This document shows positions 1,847-6,445 of a stretch of DNA of 6,445 nucleotides, piece after piece. The notes under the pieces were generated by a model, which made no database searches, had not been told where the DNA came from, and was given only the letters and a program-made list of their open reading frames with translations. How positions within the stretch are numbered: position 1 is the first letter of the stretch; the number at the start of each line of letters is the position of its first letter. Where the stretch lies: positions 1 to 6,445 of the forward strand of contig VGCB01000166.1 in the NCBI GenBank assembly GCA_016870235.1. The letters run 5' to 3'. This stretch comes from Actinomycetota bacterium (GTDB taxonomy: Bacteria > Actinomycetota > Thermoleophilia > Gaiellales > Gaiellaceae). A program made the translations under genes and the position numbers.

Positions 1847-3049
1847 ATGAATAAGCCATTGGTTCGGCGGCGGCCCAAGGTCGTGCTCGCCGTCTCCGTG
1901 CTCACGCTTGCCGTCGCGGTGACGGCGACGGTGAGCCCGGCAGGCGCCTCACCCGCGGCGCTCGACAGGACGCCGTGGTACGCGAAGGGCGAGCCAGCAC
2001 AGACGGACTCGACCGGCGCGCGCGGCGCGTACGACAGGGCCCAGGGCATCGCCGCCGCAAAGAAGGCGGGCCCGAAGGTGAAGCTGCCGAAGCTCAAGGC
2101 CGGCTTCATCCAGATCATCGGCGCGGTCTACTCCGCCCAGCGGATCGAGCGTGCCACGAAGACGGCAGTCCAGAAGATCGGTTGGTCGTGGGCGCGCTGC
2201 GACGCACAGGGTGACCCCGCGAAGATGGAGTCCTGCGGGCAGAGCCTGCTCAACCAGGGCGTGAACGTGCTCTTCGCGGACGGCATCGAGCCCTCGTTCA
2301 TCAACGGCACGCTCATCCGCGCCAGGGACAAGCAGGTGCCGGTGTTCATCATCGGCGGCATGGTGACGCCGAGCAAACTCATCTACAACTACGCGCCGGA
2401 CGAGGGCGTGGCGGCGAAAATCCTCTCCGCCGCCGTGATCAAGCAGCTCCAGGCCCTGCCCGGCACGAAAGAGGTGGCGGTCTGGAACTACCCGGCGATC
2501 TGGGGCAGCCTCCGCACGAAGGTCTTCAACGCCGAGGTCCAGAAGACCTCCGACATCAAGGTCAAGTACACGACCGACGTTGATGGAATGAACGTCGTCG
2601 ACGGGACCCGCACCGGCGTCGCCTCGCAGCTGACCCAGACCCCGGACCTCAAGGGCATCTGGAACTCGTTCGACTCGGCTGCGTTCGGCGCCGCCCAGGC
2701 CGTCAAGGCCGCGTTCCCCGGCAAGGCGTTCCCCGACGCGCCGTGCGTCTGGACGTTCTCCGGTGACCCGCCGCAGTTCGACGCGATGCGCAAGGGCGAG
2801 GTCTGCATCCTGCTCGACCAGGCCTACGACAACACCGGTTGGATCAGTGTCGACCAGGCGGCCGAGTGGTTCGCCCGCAAGAAGGTCCCGTCGCGGAGGC
2901 TCGACGGAGGCTACGGTCGGAGCGTGAGCTTCCATGAGCAGACGATCGTGACGAAGGCGAACGTGCCGAAGCCGGGAGAGTGGCTCCAGTCGCCCACGTC
3001 CGCCAAGACGTTCTTCACGGCCAAGTGGGCCGAGGAGTTCACGCAGTAG
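1847..3049 (+). CDS. Secreted ABC-transporter-type solute-binding protein (RbsB/Peripla_BP_4-like)
   Basis: This 400-residue exported protein resembles ribose/sugar-type periplasmic binding proteins. Residues 1-35 form a classic Sec signal: RRR at 7-9, a hydrophobic stretch at 11-29 and a small-residue cleavage region around AGAS (32-35). There is no lipobox cysteine, so the mature protein should be secreted or held by a partner rather than lipid-anchored, which is less usual for a Gram-positive receptor. The two-lobed fold shows as KLKAGFIQI (82-90), LLNQGVNVLFADG (134-146), VPVFIIGG (164-171), KEVAVWNY (208-215), LKGIWNSFD (268-276), and EVCILLDQAYDNTGW (318-332) in the hinge region. Cysteines 118, 130, 300 and 320 could form two disulfides outside the cell. 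The start has a strong AAAGGAGG at 1836-1843, only 3 nt before the ATG. No permease or ATPase gene adjoins it, so the transporter must be elsewhere. The ligand is unknown; sugar, polyol or a cyclic catabolic substrate are all possible. Confidence 0.85.
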   Translation: MNKPLVRRRPKVVLAVSVLTLAVAVTATVSPAGASPAALDRTPWYAKGEPAQTDSTGARGAYDRAQGIAAAKKAGPKVKLPKLKAGFIQIIGAVYSAQRIERATKTAVQKIGWSWARCDAQGDPAKMESCGQSLLNQGVNVLFADGIEPSFINGTLIRARDKQVPVFIIGGMVTPSKLIYNYAPDEGVAAKILSAAVIKQLQALPGTKEVAVWNYPAIWGSLRTKVFNAEVQKTSDIKVKYTTDVDGMNVVDGTRTGVASQLTQTPDLKGIWNSFDSAAFGAAQAVKAAFPGKAFPDAPCVWTFSGDPPQFDAMRKGEVCILLDQAYDNTGWISVDQAAEWFARKKVPSRRLDGGYGRSVSFHEQTIVTKANVPKPGEWLQSPTSAKTFFTAKWAEEFTQ

Positions 3050-3147: not shown

Positions 3148-3549
3148 GTGCCCCATCCGATCCCGATCGAGGCGATCCCGGCCCGTGGCGGGCAGAGGTT
3201 CCAGTTCCACGGCCGGGCCGAGATCCGGAACGTGTCCGAGGCCGCAGGCACCGAGGAGACGAAGGTGCGGCATGTCGCGTTCGAGGCGGGTGCGCGATCG
3301 CGTCCGCACGCTCACCCGTTCGATCAGCTCCTCTACTTCCTGCAGCCCGGGATCGTCGCTGTCGACGGCGGCGACGACGTCCTGATCGAGGCGGGCGAGG
3401 TCGTCGTGCTGCCGGCGAACGTGCCGCACATGCACGGCGCCTGCGAGGGTGCCCCGTCGGCGCACCTCTCGATCATGCGCGAGATCGGGTCGACCGAGTA
3501 CGACGTCCCGATGCCGGCCGGTTGGGAGCGCTACCGCGCGGGCCCGTAG
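3148..3549 (+). CDS. Small single-domain cupin protein
   Basis: This 133-residue protein starts with GTG and forms one cupin beta-barrel. Motif 1 is GARSRPHAHPFDQLLYFLQPG (residues 48-68 with this start), with His54, His56 and Gln60 at the metal-ligand places; Gln replaces the usual Glu. Motif 2 is GEVVVLPANVPHMHG (83-97), giving the fourth ligand His94. Cupins of this size act as dioxygenases, isomerases, sugar epimerases or small-molecule sensors, and the fold alone does not say which. The frame stays open far upstream into the binding-protein gene, so the start was chosen from the ribosome site at 3134-3140. It follows the binding-protein gene on the same strand across a strong hairpin and converges on the minus-strand monooxygenase with 12 nt between the stops. 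It probably shares a pathway with its neighbours, but no reaction can be assigned. Confidence 0.85.
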   Translation: MPHPIPIEAIPARGGQRFQFHGRAEIRNVSEAAGTEETKVRHVAFEAGARSRPHAHPFDQLLYFLQPGIVAVDGGDDVLIEAGEVVVLPANVPHMHGACEGAPSAHLSIMREIGSTEYDVPMPAGWERYRAGP

Positions 3550-3561
3550 TCGGGATCCACG

Positions 3562-4692
3562 TCAGCCCTTGCGGAGGCCGGCCTGCACGCAGAGCGGCAA
3601 CAGCTCGTCCTTGAACTGACGCAATCCCGCCGCGTAGTCGGGCCAGTTGAGCGTGATCCCGTCGAACCCGGCCGCGGCCATCTTCACCATCCCGTCGACG
3701 ACCTGCTCGGGCGTGCCGTGCAGCGGAATCGCCCCCATGCCGCCGATGATGAGCGCCTTCATCCGGTCGAGATCCTCCTTGGGGATCGAGCCCGAATGGA
3801 GCCCGACCTCGTCGGTCATCGTCGTCGCGGCAACCCAGTCACCCTTCTCGTGGACGTAGTAGTCGACGTACCGCTTCACCTCCGCCTCGGTGTCGCGACA
3901 CACGATCGAGCCCATCCCGAACACCATCACCTCGCGCCCGAACTCCCGGCGGGCGTACTCCTTGCAGTCCTTGATCAACGCCGCCGCGATCTCGAGGTCG
4001 GGGGCAACCGCGAAGTTGATGTCGCAGTGCTTTGCCGCGAACGCCCGGCCGGCCGGGCTCGAGCCCGCGCCCATCAGGATCGGGTGTGGCTGCTGCAGCG
4101 GCTTTGGATCGGAGTCGGCGTCGTACACCTGCAGGTATCTGCCGTCGTGCGTGAACGGCTCCTGCTCGGTCCAGAGGCGACGGCAGATAGTCATCCACTC
4201 GTCGGCGTACACGTAGCGCTCGTCGTGCTCCAGCATGACCTTCGAGCCGAAGAGGCGGAACTCGCGGCTGAACCAGCCGGCGACGACGTTCGCCGCGGCG
4301 CGCCCGCCCGAGATGTGGTCGAGCGTCGCGACCTGCTTCGCGAACATCACCGGATGCACCGACGGCATCAGCACCGTCGTGAAGATCTGCGTCCTCTCGG
4401 TCTTCGCCGCAAGGCCCGCGGCCCAGGTCGTGGTCTCGAAGTTTCGCTGGCCCGGGTTCGTGTCGCCCTGCATCCCCTTCCAGCGGACGTACGGGACGAT
4501 GCCCTCGATCCCCGCCTCCTCCACGAGCCGGGCCACCTCGACGCTCTCCTCCCACTCCGCCTTCAGCGTCCCCTCGGCGGCCGTCATCGTGCAGCCACCC
4601 TGCGCGCTCATGCCGAAGACCATCAGCTTGAGCGGGTTCTCGCTGAAGAGCGGCGCGCCGCCCTCCCTGCGCTCAAGAGCCATTGTCGCCAT
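3562..4692 (-). CDS. Luciferase-family flavin monooxygenase, RutA/SfnG/SsuD-like
   Basis: This 376-residue enzyme belongs to the group of two-component FMNH2-dependent oxygenases that includes pyrimidine monooxygenase RutA, dimethylsulfone monooxygenase SfnG and alkanesulfonate monooxygenase SsuD. Visible blocks are the first barrel strand LKLMVFGMS (21-29), ARLVEEAGIEGIVPYVRWKG (54-73), QIFTTVLMPSVHPVMFAKQ (102-120), DHISGGRAAANVVAGW (125-140), GAGSSPAGRAFAAKHCDINF (208-227) and a C-terminal GTPEQVVDGMVKMAAAGFDG (326-345). Thr106 and Asn135 align with RutA Thr105 and Asn134, residues tied to oxygen placement at flavin N5 (alignment by eye from memory). A separate NADH:FMN reductase would be needed and is not in view. 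The ATG at 4692 has GGAGG (4704-4700) 7 nt before it; an alternative ATG lies 9 nt inside. It is 35 nt downstream of the crotonase gene in the same operon. Substrate unknown: a cyclic ketone, ring nitrogen or sulfur compound are all possible. Confidence 0.9.
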   Translation of the reverse strand: MATMALERREGGAPLFSENPLKLMVFGMSAQGGCTMTAAEGTLKAEWEESVEVARLVEEAGIEGIVPYVRWKGMQGDTNPGQRNFETTTWAAGLAAKTERTQIFTTVLMPSVHPVMFAKQVATLDHISGGRAAANVVAGWFSREFRLFGSKVMLEHDERYVYADEWMTICRRLWTEQEPFTHDGRYLQVYDADSDPKPLQQPHPILMGAGSSPAGRAFAAKHCDINFAVAPDLEIAAALIKDCKEYARREFGREVMVFGMGSIVCRDTEAEVKRYVDYYVHEKGDWVAATTMTDEVGLHSGSIPKEDLDRMKALIIGGMGAIPLHGTPEQVVDGMVKMAAAGFDGITLNWPDYAAGLRQFKDELLPLCVQAGLRKG

Positions 4693-4727: not shown

Positions 4728-5486
4728 TCAGGAGTTCGGTCGGGGCGGCGGCGGCGCGTCCGAGTACGAGACGCCCTCGAGCGCGAGGCCCGACGCCAGT
4801 CCGGTCAGGAGGTGCTGCCGCTCGAAGGTGTTCAGCGCCTCCCGGGTATAGCGGAGATGGGGGAGCGGCCACTTGGCCCACTCGAGCGCGATCTCCCACG
4901 CGCGGCCCATCAGCTGATCGTGCGGGACGATCTCGTTGACGACACCGAGCTCGAGCGCCTCGCGCACCGGGATCTCCTGCCGCATCATCAGGAAGTACTT
5001 GGCGCGGCGGTGCCCGATCAGCCAGGGCCAGATCAGGTGGACACCGTCACCGGGCACCGTCCCGGTCGTGAAGTGGGTCTTGTCTGCGAAGACCGTCGTG
5101 TCCGACGCGATCACGATGTCGGCCAGCAGCGGCATCTCCGCGTGGATGAAGGCAGGCCCGTTGACGGCGCCGATGACGGGCACGTCGATCTCCAAGAGGT
5201 TGCGGAGCATGCGCTTGCCCTCCCAGTAGGTGACCTCCCAGTTTCCGCCGCCGACGCCGATGTTCAGCTTCGCGAAGGCAGGGCGGTCGATCGAGGCGCA
5301 GAACGAGTCGCCCGTCCCGGTGACGATCACCACCTTGGTCTCGCGATCCCCCGCGACCTCGGCGAAGGCGTAGCCGGCCTCGCGGTGCGCTTCTGGAGTC
5401 CAGCGGAGAGGCCCGCCCTCGGTGTGGAAACGGATCTCGGTGACGCCGTCGCGGTGCGTCAGAACGATTGACTCGTAGTCGCTCAT
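4728..5486 (-). CDS. Crotonase-fold 6-oxocamphor hydrolase-like beta-diketone hydrolase
   Basis: This 252-residue protein has the crotonase fold and would usually be labelled enoyl-CoA hydratase, but its detail matches 6-oxocamphor hydrolase (CamK of Rhodococcus), which cleaves a C-C bond in cyclic beta-diketones by a retro-Claisen reaction without CoA. Shared blocks include HTEG...LxWTxxAH (21-34), DRExKVVIxTGTGxSFC (47-63), VPVIxAVNGP (102-111) and GxVPGDGxHxxWP (142-154). His115, His138, Asp147 and Glu237 all fall exactly 7 residues before the His122, His145, Asp154 and Glu244 of that enzyme (alignment by eye from memory). The second hydratase glutamate, normally just before the LLGTIPGAGG-type turn, is replaced by the THFTTG segment, which argues against ordinary hydratase chemistry. 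The C-terminus ends in a proline-rich tail (APPPPRP). The ATG at 5486 has GGAGG (5498-5494) 7 nt before it. It is the first gene of a minus-strand operon and diverges from a P450. A CoA-dependent hydratase or hydrolase remains the alternative. Confidence 0.85.
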   Translation of the reverse strand: MSDYESIVLTHRDGVTEIRFHTEGGPLRWTPEAHREAGYAFAEVAGDRETKVVIVTGTGDSFCASIDRPAFAKLNIGVGGGNWEVTYWEGKRMLRNLLEIDVPVIGAVNGPAFIHAEMPLLADIVIASDTTVFADKTHFTTGTVPGDGVHLIWPWLIGHRRAKYFLMMRQEIPVREALELGVVNEIVPHDQLMGRAWEIALEWAKWPLPHLRYTREALNTFERQHLLTGLASGLALEGVSYSDAPPPPRPNS

Positions 5487-5656: not shown

Positions 5657-6445
5657 ATGAGCGCGAGACCGACGACGACTGGCATCGAGGCGCCGCCGGC
5701 AGGCGACCGGGAGGCGCAGCACGCGTACTACGCGGCGCTCCGCGACCGGGGAGAGGTGCTGTGGGACGAGGGTCGCCGGGCCTGGCTCGTCGTGTCGCAC
5801 CGCATGGCGAAGGAGCTCGCCCGCCGCGAGGAGAAGAGCGTCCGCTCCGCGATGGCGTTCCGCCGCGAGCGGTTCCTCGGGATGGACTGGGACACGTACG
5901 CGTGGTACCAGGGCGGGCACCGGCGCATCAACCTCCTCACGGGCGAGGAGCACCAGCGCGTCCACCGCTGGTGGATGTCGGTCTTCACCCCGAAGGTGAT
6001 CGACACCTGGCGCGCCGACGTGATCCGGCCCGTGGTGCACGCCCAGATCGGCCGCCTCGGCCGCACGGGCCGGACCGAGCTCGGTCTCCTCGCGGACGGC
6101 GTCCACATCCGCATCATCGCGGGCACCGTCGGCATGCCCTGGACCGACGACGCCTGGATGGAGCGCTGGGAGAGGCTCAGCGAGGCGAACCAGCGCGTCA
6201 AGTGGTACATGTCCGAGGCGTCGGTTCCCGAGGAGATCGTCCAGGCCGGCCTCGAGGCCTCGGCGGAGATCCGGGACGAGCTGCTGACATGGGTGCGGCA
6301 CCACTGCGGCGGCACCGGCGACTCGCTGCTCGAGATGATGTGGCGGGACTTCCCCTCGCTGCTCGAGGACGTCACCGAGGAGGACGTGCTCGCGAACCTG
6401 AAGCCGTCGTTCGAGACGAACTCGACCCGTGCGGTGATCCGGAAC
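5657..6445 (+). CDS. Cytochrome P450, N-terminal part (cut by window end)
   Basis: The frame stays open from 5657 to the last base, giving the first 263 residues of a soluble bacterial P450 (typically about 400). It shows the N-terminal YYAALRDRGEVLWDEGRRAWLVVSH (24-48) that forms the first beta sheet. The C-helix GEEHQRVHRWWMSVFTP (96-112) has His99 at the heme-propionate position and Trp105/106. The segment ELGLLADGVHIRIIAGTVGMP (141-161) matches the usual region before the F helix. The I-helix start EEDVLANLKPSFETNST (241-257) lacks a clear AGxET signature. The heme cysteine loop lies outside the window. I chose ATG 5657, with GGAG at 5648-5651, because an in-frame ATG at 5600 overlaps the likely -10 and lacks a ribosome site. 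Electron partners are not visible. Divergence from a diketone-hydrolase-like gene suggests it oxidises a ring carbon early in that pathway (inference). Confidence 0.85.
   Translation, partial: MSARPTTTGIEAPPAGDREAQHAYYAALRDRGEVLWDEGRRAWLVVSHRMAKELARREEKSVRSAMAFRRERFLGMDWDTYAWYQGGHRRINLLTGEEHQRVHRWWMSVFTPKVIDTWRADVIRPVVHAQIGRLGRTGRTELGLLADGVHIRIIAGTVGMPWTDDAWMERWERLSEANQRVKWYMSEASVPEEIVQAGLEASAEIRDELLTWVRHHCGGTGDSLLEMMWRDFPSLLEDVTEEDVLANLKPSFETNSTRAVIRN

Follow-up and report, generated by a model that had tools for sequence, protein, structure and literature searches.

A crotonase-fold protein from a Gaiellaceae bacterium as a probable coenzyme A-independent β-diketone hydrolase related to 6-oxocamphor hydrolase

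A 6,445-nucleotide stretch of DNA from an Actinomycetota bacterium of the family Gaiellaceae (GCA_016870235.1, contig VGCB01000166.1; the window hereafter) carries, at 4728..5486 on the minus strand, a gene for a crotonase-fold protein of 252 amino acids (P0001; ATG at 5486, stop codon included). The question raised by this locus is whether the product is an ordinary coenzyme A (CoA)-dependent enoyl-CoA hydratase/isomerase, as annotation pipelines label it, or a hydrolase that cleaves a carbon-carbon bond by retro-Claisen chemistry, as a preliminary description of the sequence had considered probable. The analysis supported the latter proposal: the protein is most likely a CoA-independent β-diketone hydrolase.

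Sequence comparison with phmmer against PDB sequences returned Anabaena β-diketone hydrolase (ABDH, alr4455; PDB 2j5g/2j5s) as the best match (2j5g, 232 bits, 5.9e-68) and 6-oxocamphor hydrolase (CamK/OCH; PDB 1o8u/1szo) as the second (1o8u, 221 bits, 2.2e-64). These were the only close matches, the next being EchA15 (3qk8, 80 bits, 1.5e-21). Identity to the two characterised enzymes was 47% at most (46% to OCH). In the stretch from about 67 to 80 the protein is four residues longer than OCH. Residue 106 lies opposite OCH 113 and the pairwise alignment is gap-free afterwards, so the offset is constant at 7 and His115, His138, Asp147 and Glu237 correspond to OCH residues 122, 145, 154 and 244, as had been described. 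The register is fixed because the PDB sequence of the OCH mutant His122Ala (1szo) has alanine opposite His115. The codons, all on the minus strand and placed by the open reading frame (for His115 also by the alignment), are at 5142..5144 (His115), 5073..5075 (His138), 5046..5048 (Asp147) and 4776..4778 (Glu237). ABDH has the same active site. Trp29 lies opposite OCH Trp40; ABDH has Phe at this position.

Conservation of the site was assessed in 209 sequences, comprising 120 listed proteins (the query included) and the proteins of 89 of 95 loci, with some repeats (e.g. L001, L111 and P0049). His115 was kept in 208, Glu117, Asp135, His138 and Asp147 in all 209, and Glu237 in 207. The sequences were chosen by similarity to the query, so these counts point to a site fixed within the family and do not imply that it is unique to it. 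Of 28 further crotonase-family proteins, drawn from five genomes, none had His at 115, one had His at 138 and none had Asp at 147.

The same positions bear on the hydratase label. A canonical enoyl-CoA hydratase resembles the protein in its fold and in its first catalytic glutamate, which is retained as Glu117 (codon 5136..5138, minus strand). His138 aligns with the second, so that one hydratase glutamate is missing, as previously noted, and the GGG motif is absent (IHAE in place of GGGCE). Pfam speaks for the label, ECH_1 being the sole match at 108 bits (cut-off 27), and acyl-CoA genes lie near some relatives, many of which are themselves named enoyl-CoA hydratase. In contrast, 63 NCBIfam models matched, and of the 25 shown none reached its cut-off (best, 110 of 292 bits). 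Routine annotation as a hydratase is explained by this combination of a single Pfam match and no shown NCBIfam model at cut-off. It was foreseen in the preliminary description and is seen in the plasmid relatives (30 listed of 35 found), 26 of which are named hydratase or crotonase: 24 as "enoyl-CoA hydratase/isomerase family protein", one as enoyl-CoA hydratase and one as crotonase, with four unannotated. Together with the tree described below, the replaced glutamate and the lost motif make a CoA-dependent hydratase/isomerase very improbable.

In the main tree (73 rows), the query fell, with both OCH and ABDH from the PDB, into an OCH-like clade of 42 rows supported at 100/100, apart from CoA-dependent hydratases. 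A separate tree with other crotonases also placed the query outside the hydratases with support of 100. Within the OCH-like clade, 10 rows including the query form a subclade (100/96). Neither OCH nor ABDH belongs to it, ABDH falling in a different group of 4 rows (98/98). Two organisms are named in the query subclade and both are actinobacteria, Mycobacterium pinniadriaticum (L017) and a Frankiales metagenome-assembled genome (MAG; P0049). The subclade also contains P0112, the one protein of the 120 listed whose source names it 6-oxocamphor hydrolase. The predicted model of the query superposes best on OCH and ABDH, across the whole chain, with a root-mean-square deviation from ABDH of 1.4-1.5.

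Family membership, predicted fold and site conservation were established as above, and the reaction is inferred from the known chemistry of OCH and ABDH. Water activated by the His/Asp/Glu site would add to one of the two carbonyls of a 1,3-diketone, for which a cyclic or bicyclic structure is most likely. The bond between the two carbonyls would then break in a retro-Claisen reaction to give a keto acid. To judge from neighbouring genes alone, the diketone might be supplied within a catabolic gene cluster by cytochrome P450 hydroxylation followed by dehydrogenation.

The adjacent P450 gene bears on the identity of the substrate. This gene is divergent from the hydrolase gene on the plus strand and runs from about 5657 to 6445, where it is truncated by the end of the window; its start was inferred from P0121 and P0122. 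No Pfam model matched the fragment at 1e-3, and it was recognised via full-length homologues. A protein search returned seven relatives at E<=1e-3, the fragment itself included. A characteristic I-helix motif is expected in P450s, and the full-length homologue P0122 has PSFET at the expected site. P0122 is 78% identical to the window P450 and P0002 is 86% identical to the hydrolase. Each lies on a single 46,693-base contig from the same source, and this apparently shared contig suggests that the hydrolase-P450 pair is conserved.

A P450 also accompanies OCH-type genes elsewhere. At six loci (L019, L020, L021, L022, L034 and L042) it precedes the hydrolase gene by 7-11 bp and is 60-64% identical to the P450 of Rhodococcus plasmid L120. 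The independent cases number fewer than six because only L019 and L034 are among the 56 dereplicated loci. On L120 the P450 has a ferredoxin and a short-chain dehydrogenase/reductase (SDR) alongside, and six genes separate it from the hydrolase. An orthologue of OCH, acting on 6-oxocamphor in camphor breakdown, could be read from the adjacent P450 and from the identical residues, Trp29 included. However, the window P450 is of another kind, P0122 and the L120 P450 sharing 27% identity over 174 amino acids; the hydrolase is only 46% identical to OCH, against 66% for the L120 homologue; and it belongs to the separate subclade. There is thus at best a slim chance of orthology. Since the query subclade is separate from both OCH and ABDH, 6-oxocamphor is probably not the substrate.

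A further alternative retains the chemistry and changes the substrate class, the protein being a C-C hydrolase for a 1,3-dicarbonyl that is open-chain or N-heterocyclic, or for a CoA thioester. The identity of at most 47% to the two characterised enzymes leaves room for this, and the neighbours of relatives vary widely, with molybdenum hydroxylase genes at L121 and L122 and acyl-CoA genes at L120 and L001. OCH and ABDH both act on cyclic diketones. Against the alternative, the bound products named in the PDB titles of OCH and ABDH structures derive from cyclic compounds, and the title of the ABDH structure paper, as it appears in the reference list of PMC3584854, calls that enzyme coenzyme A-independent. 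A substrate of this other class was considered possible but rather unlikely, and a cyclic diketone is preferred. On plasmids L122 (9141-14190) and L121 (4505-10738), the OCH-like genes lie beside subunits of molybdenum hydroxylases of the xanthine dehydrogenase family, with an MFS transporter nearby, which suggests other ring-opening substrates for these relatives.

Several observations weigh against a β-diketone hydrolase working with the neighbouring enzymes. Luciferase-like monooxygenase (LLM) LLM2 is encoded next to the hydrolase, and among 120 listed LLM2 homologues none came from a source with a 46,693-base longest contig. At L001, the nearest locus with flanks (64%), no P450 or LLM was present in the ten genes scanned. 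Enrichment was tested at the 56 dereplicated loci, with genes called by a purpose-written script and phmmer run across all called genes. P450 was not significantly enriched at ranks 1-3 relative to ranks 4+ (11/308 vs 11/437, p 0.51), nor was LLM (11/308 vs 12/437, p 0.53) or SDR (24/308 vs 19/437, p 0.055). This control was judged strict because the outer genes often lie within the same catabolic regions. Finally, three of the four site residues are also found in EchA15-like proteins. By Pfam, the 109 direct neighbours at the 56 loci included 12 SDR, 7 LLM, 6 PAC2 and 5 P450, and 109 random genes of ranks 6-8 included 7 SDR and 3 LLM, with P450 and PAC2 outside the 25 families shown. LLM or P450 neighbours as a general hallmark of the family were rejected as unsupported, there being no significant difference by phmmer.

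The EchA15-like proteins (near PRK07327; PDB 3qk8, 3q1t and 7m3w) are the nearest outside group to the OCH clade and match the query at 72-80 bits only. Five of six such rows adjoin the OCH clade (47 rows jointly, 100/100), with weak branching order there (87/32); the sixth (L135) was placed among ordinary crotonases. In the tree alignment those five have His138, Asp147 and Glu237 with Gly at 115, and the group differs from the query in this Gly and in the lack of Glu117. His34 is present in four of the six rows. His138/Asp147/Glu237 therefore mark the wider OCH/EchA15 group, and His115 with Glu117 mark the OCH clade. The preliminary claim of a full 6-oxocamphor hydrolase active site stands in that all four residues are present; the specificity it attached to the quartet was overstated. 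The placement fits a prediction in the SALSA paper that the EchA15-like protein 3q1t is a β-diketone hydrolase (PMC3584854). The EchA15-like "enoyl-CoA hydratases" L130-L133 (whole genome G002) and the three PDB entries have His138, Asp147 and Glu237, and mostly His34, in common with β-diketone hydrolases, but not His115 and Glu117. Thermus composti also has a PRK07327 match. EchA15-like proteins may likewise be misannotated.

A broader proposal is put forward tentatively, as one that is somewhat less likely to hold than to fail. The query and its relatives, the named ones actinobacterial, might form a retro-Claisen hydrolase subfamily that is undescribed in the searchable literature and has its own partner family of divergent P450s. 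Modules of a P450 followed by a C-C hydrolase would then have two or more separate origins, with P450s unrelated to one another and a different alicyclic (e.g. terpenoid) substrate for each. The wider EchA15 group would share enough of the site to include further C-C hydrolases.

A relative was found at E<=1e-30 in 8 of 396 sampled Actinomycetota genomes, with at most six candidates per genome scored, and in this sample the enzymes are rare, as had been claimed. The family is nevertheless a wide one: a pattern scan of genome contigs gave 307 of 361 stretches encoding a relative. No closer relative with flanks than L001/L111 (the own copy of genome G001, 64-66%) was found among 396, 394 and 397 genomes sampled, with overlap, at the level of the phylum, class and order to which G001 belongs.

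The enzyme family is already known; what is new is a further member, commonly misnamed and probably with another substrate than 6-oxocamphor. The finding is useful, though it will not surprise a specialist in the crotonase superfamily. β-Diketone hydrolases are useful for desymmetrising diketones. A residue test of His115 and His138 with Glu117, Asp147 and Glu237 would recover relatives filed as enoyl-CoA hydratases, and the adjacent P450 is a testable lead toward the natural substrate.

The remaining genes of the window were as follows. LLM2 (376 amino acids; 3562..4692, minus strand; best NCBIfam match SfnG, 168 bits, cut-off 383) lies downstream of the hydrolase gene in the same direction, with a gap of 35 bp. 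The others are a putative C-terminal end of a hydantoinase-A-like protein, called by eye (1-192), a SnoaL-like protein (195-680), a second luciferase-like monooxygenase, LLM1 (677-1705), a periplasmic binding protein (1847-3049) and a cupin (3148-3549).

Chloroflexota and a Nevskia MAG likewise have LLM genes immediately next to an OCH-like gene (L025:3301-6156, L039:1100-3038 and L075:8902-10735). Some SAR202 monooxygenases of the LLM class are likened to diketocamphane monooxygenase in PMC5395668, and a shared ring-opening module is therefore conceivable. In the SAR202 bacterium of L075, a PAC2-domain gene (10833-11735) also adjoins the OCH-like gene.
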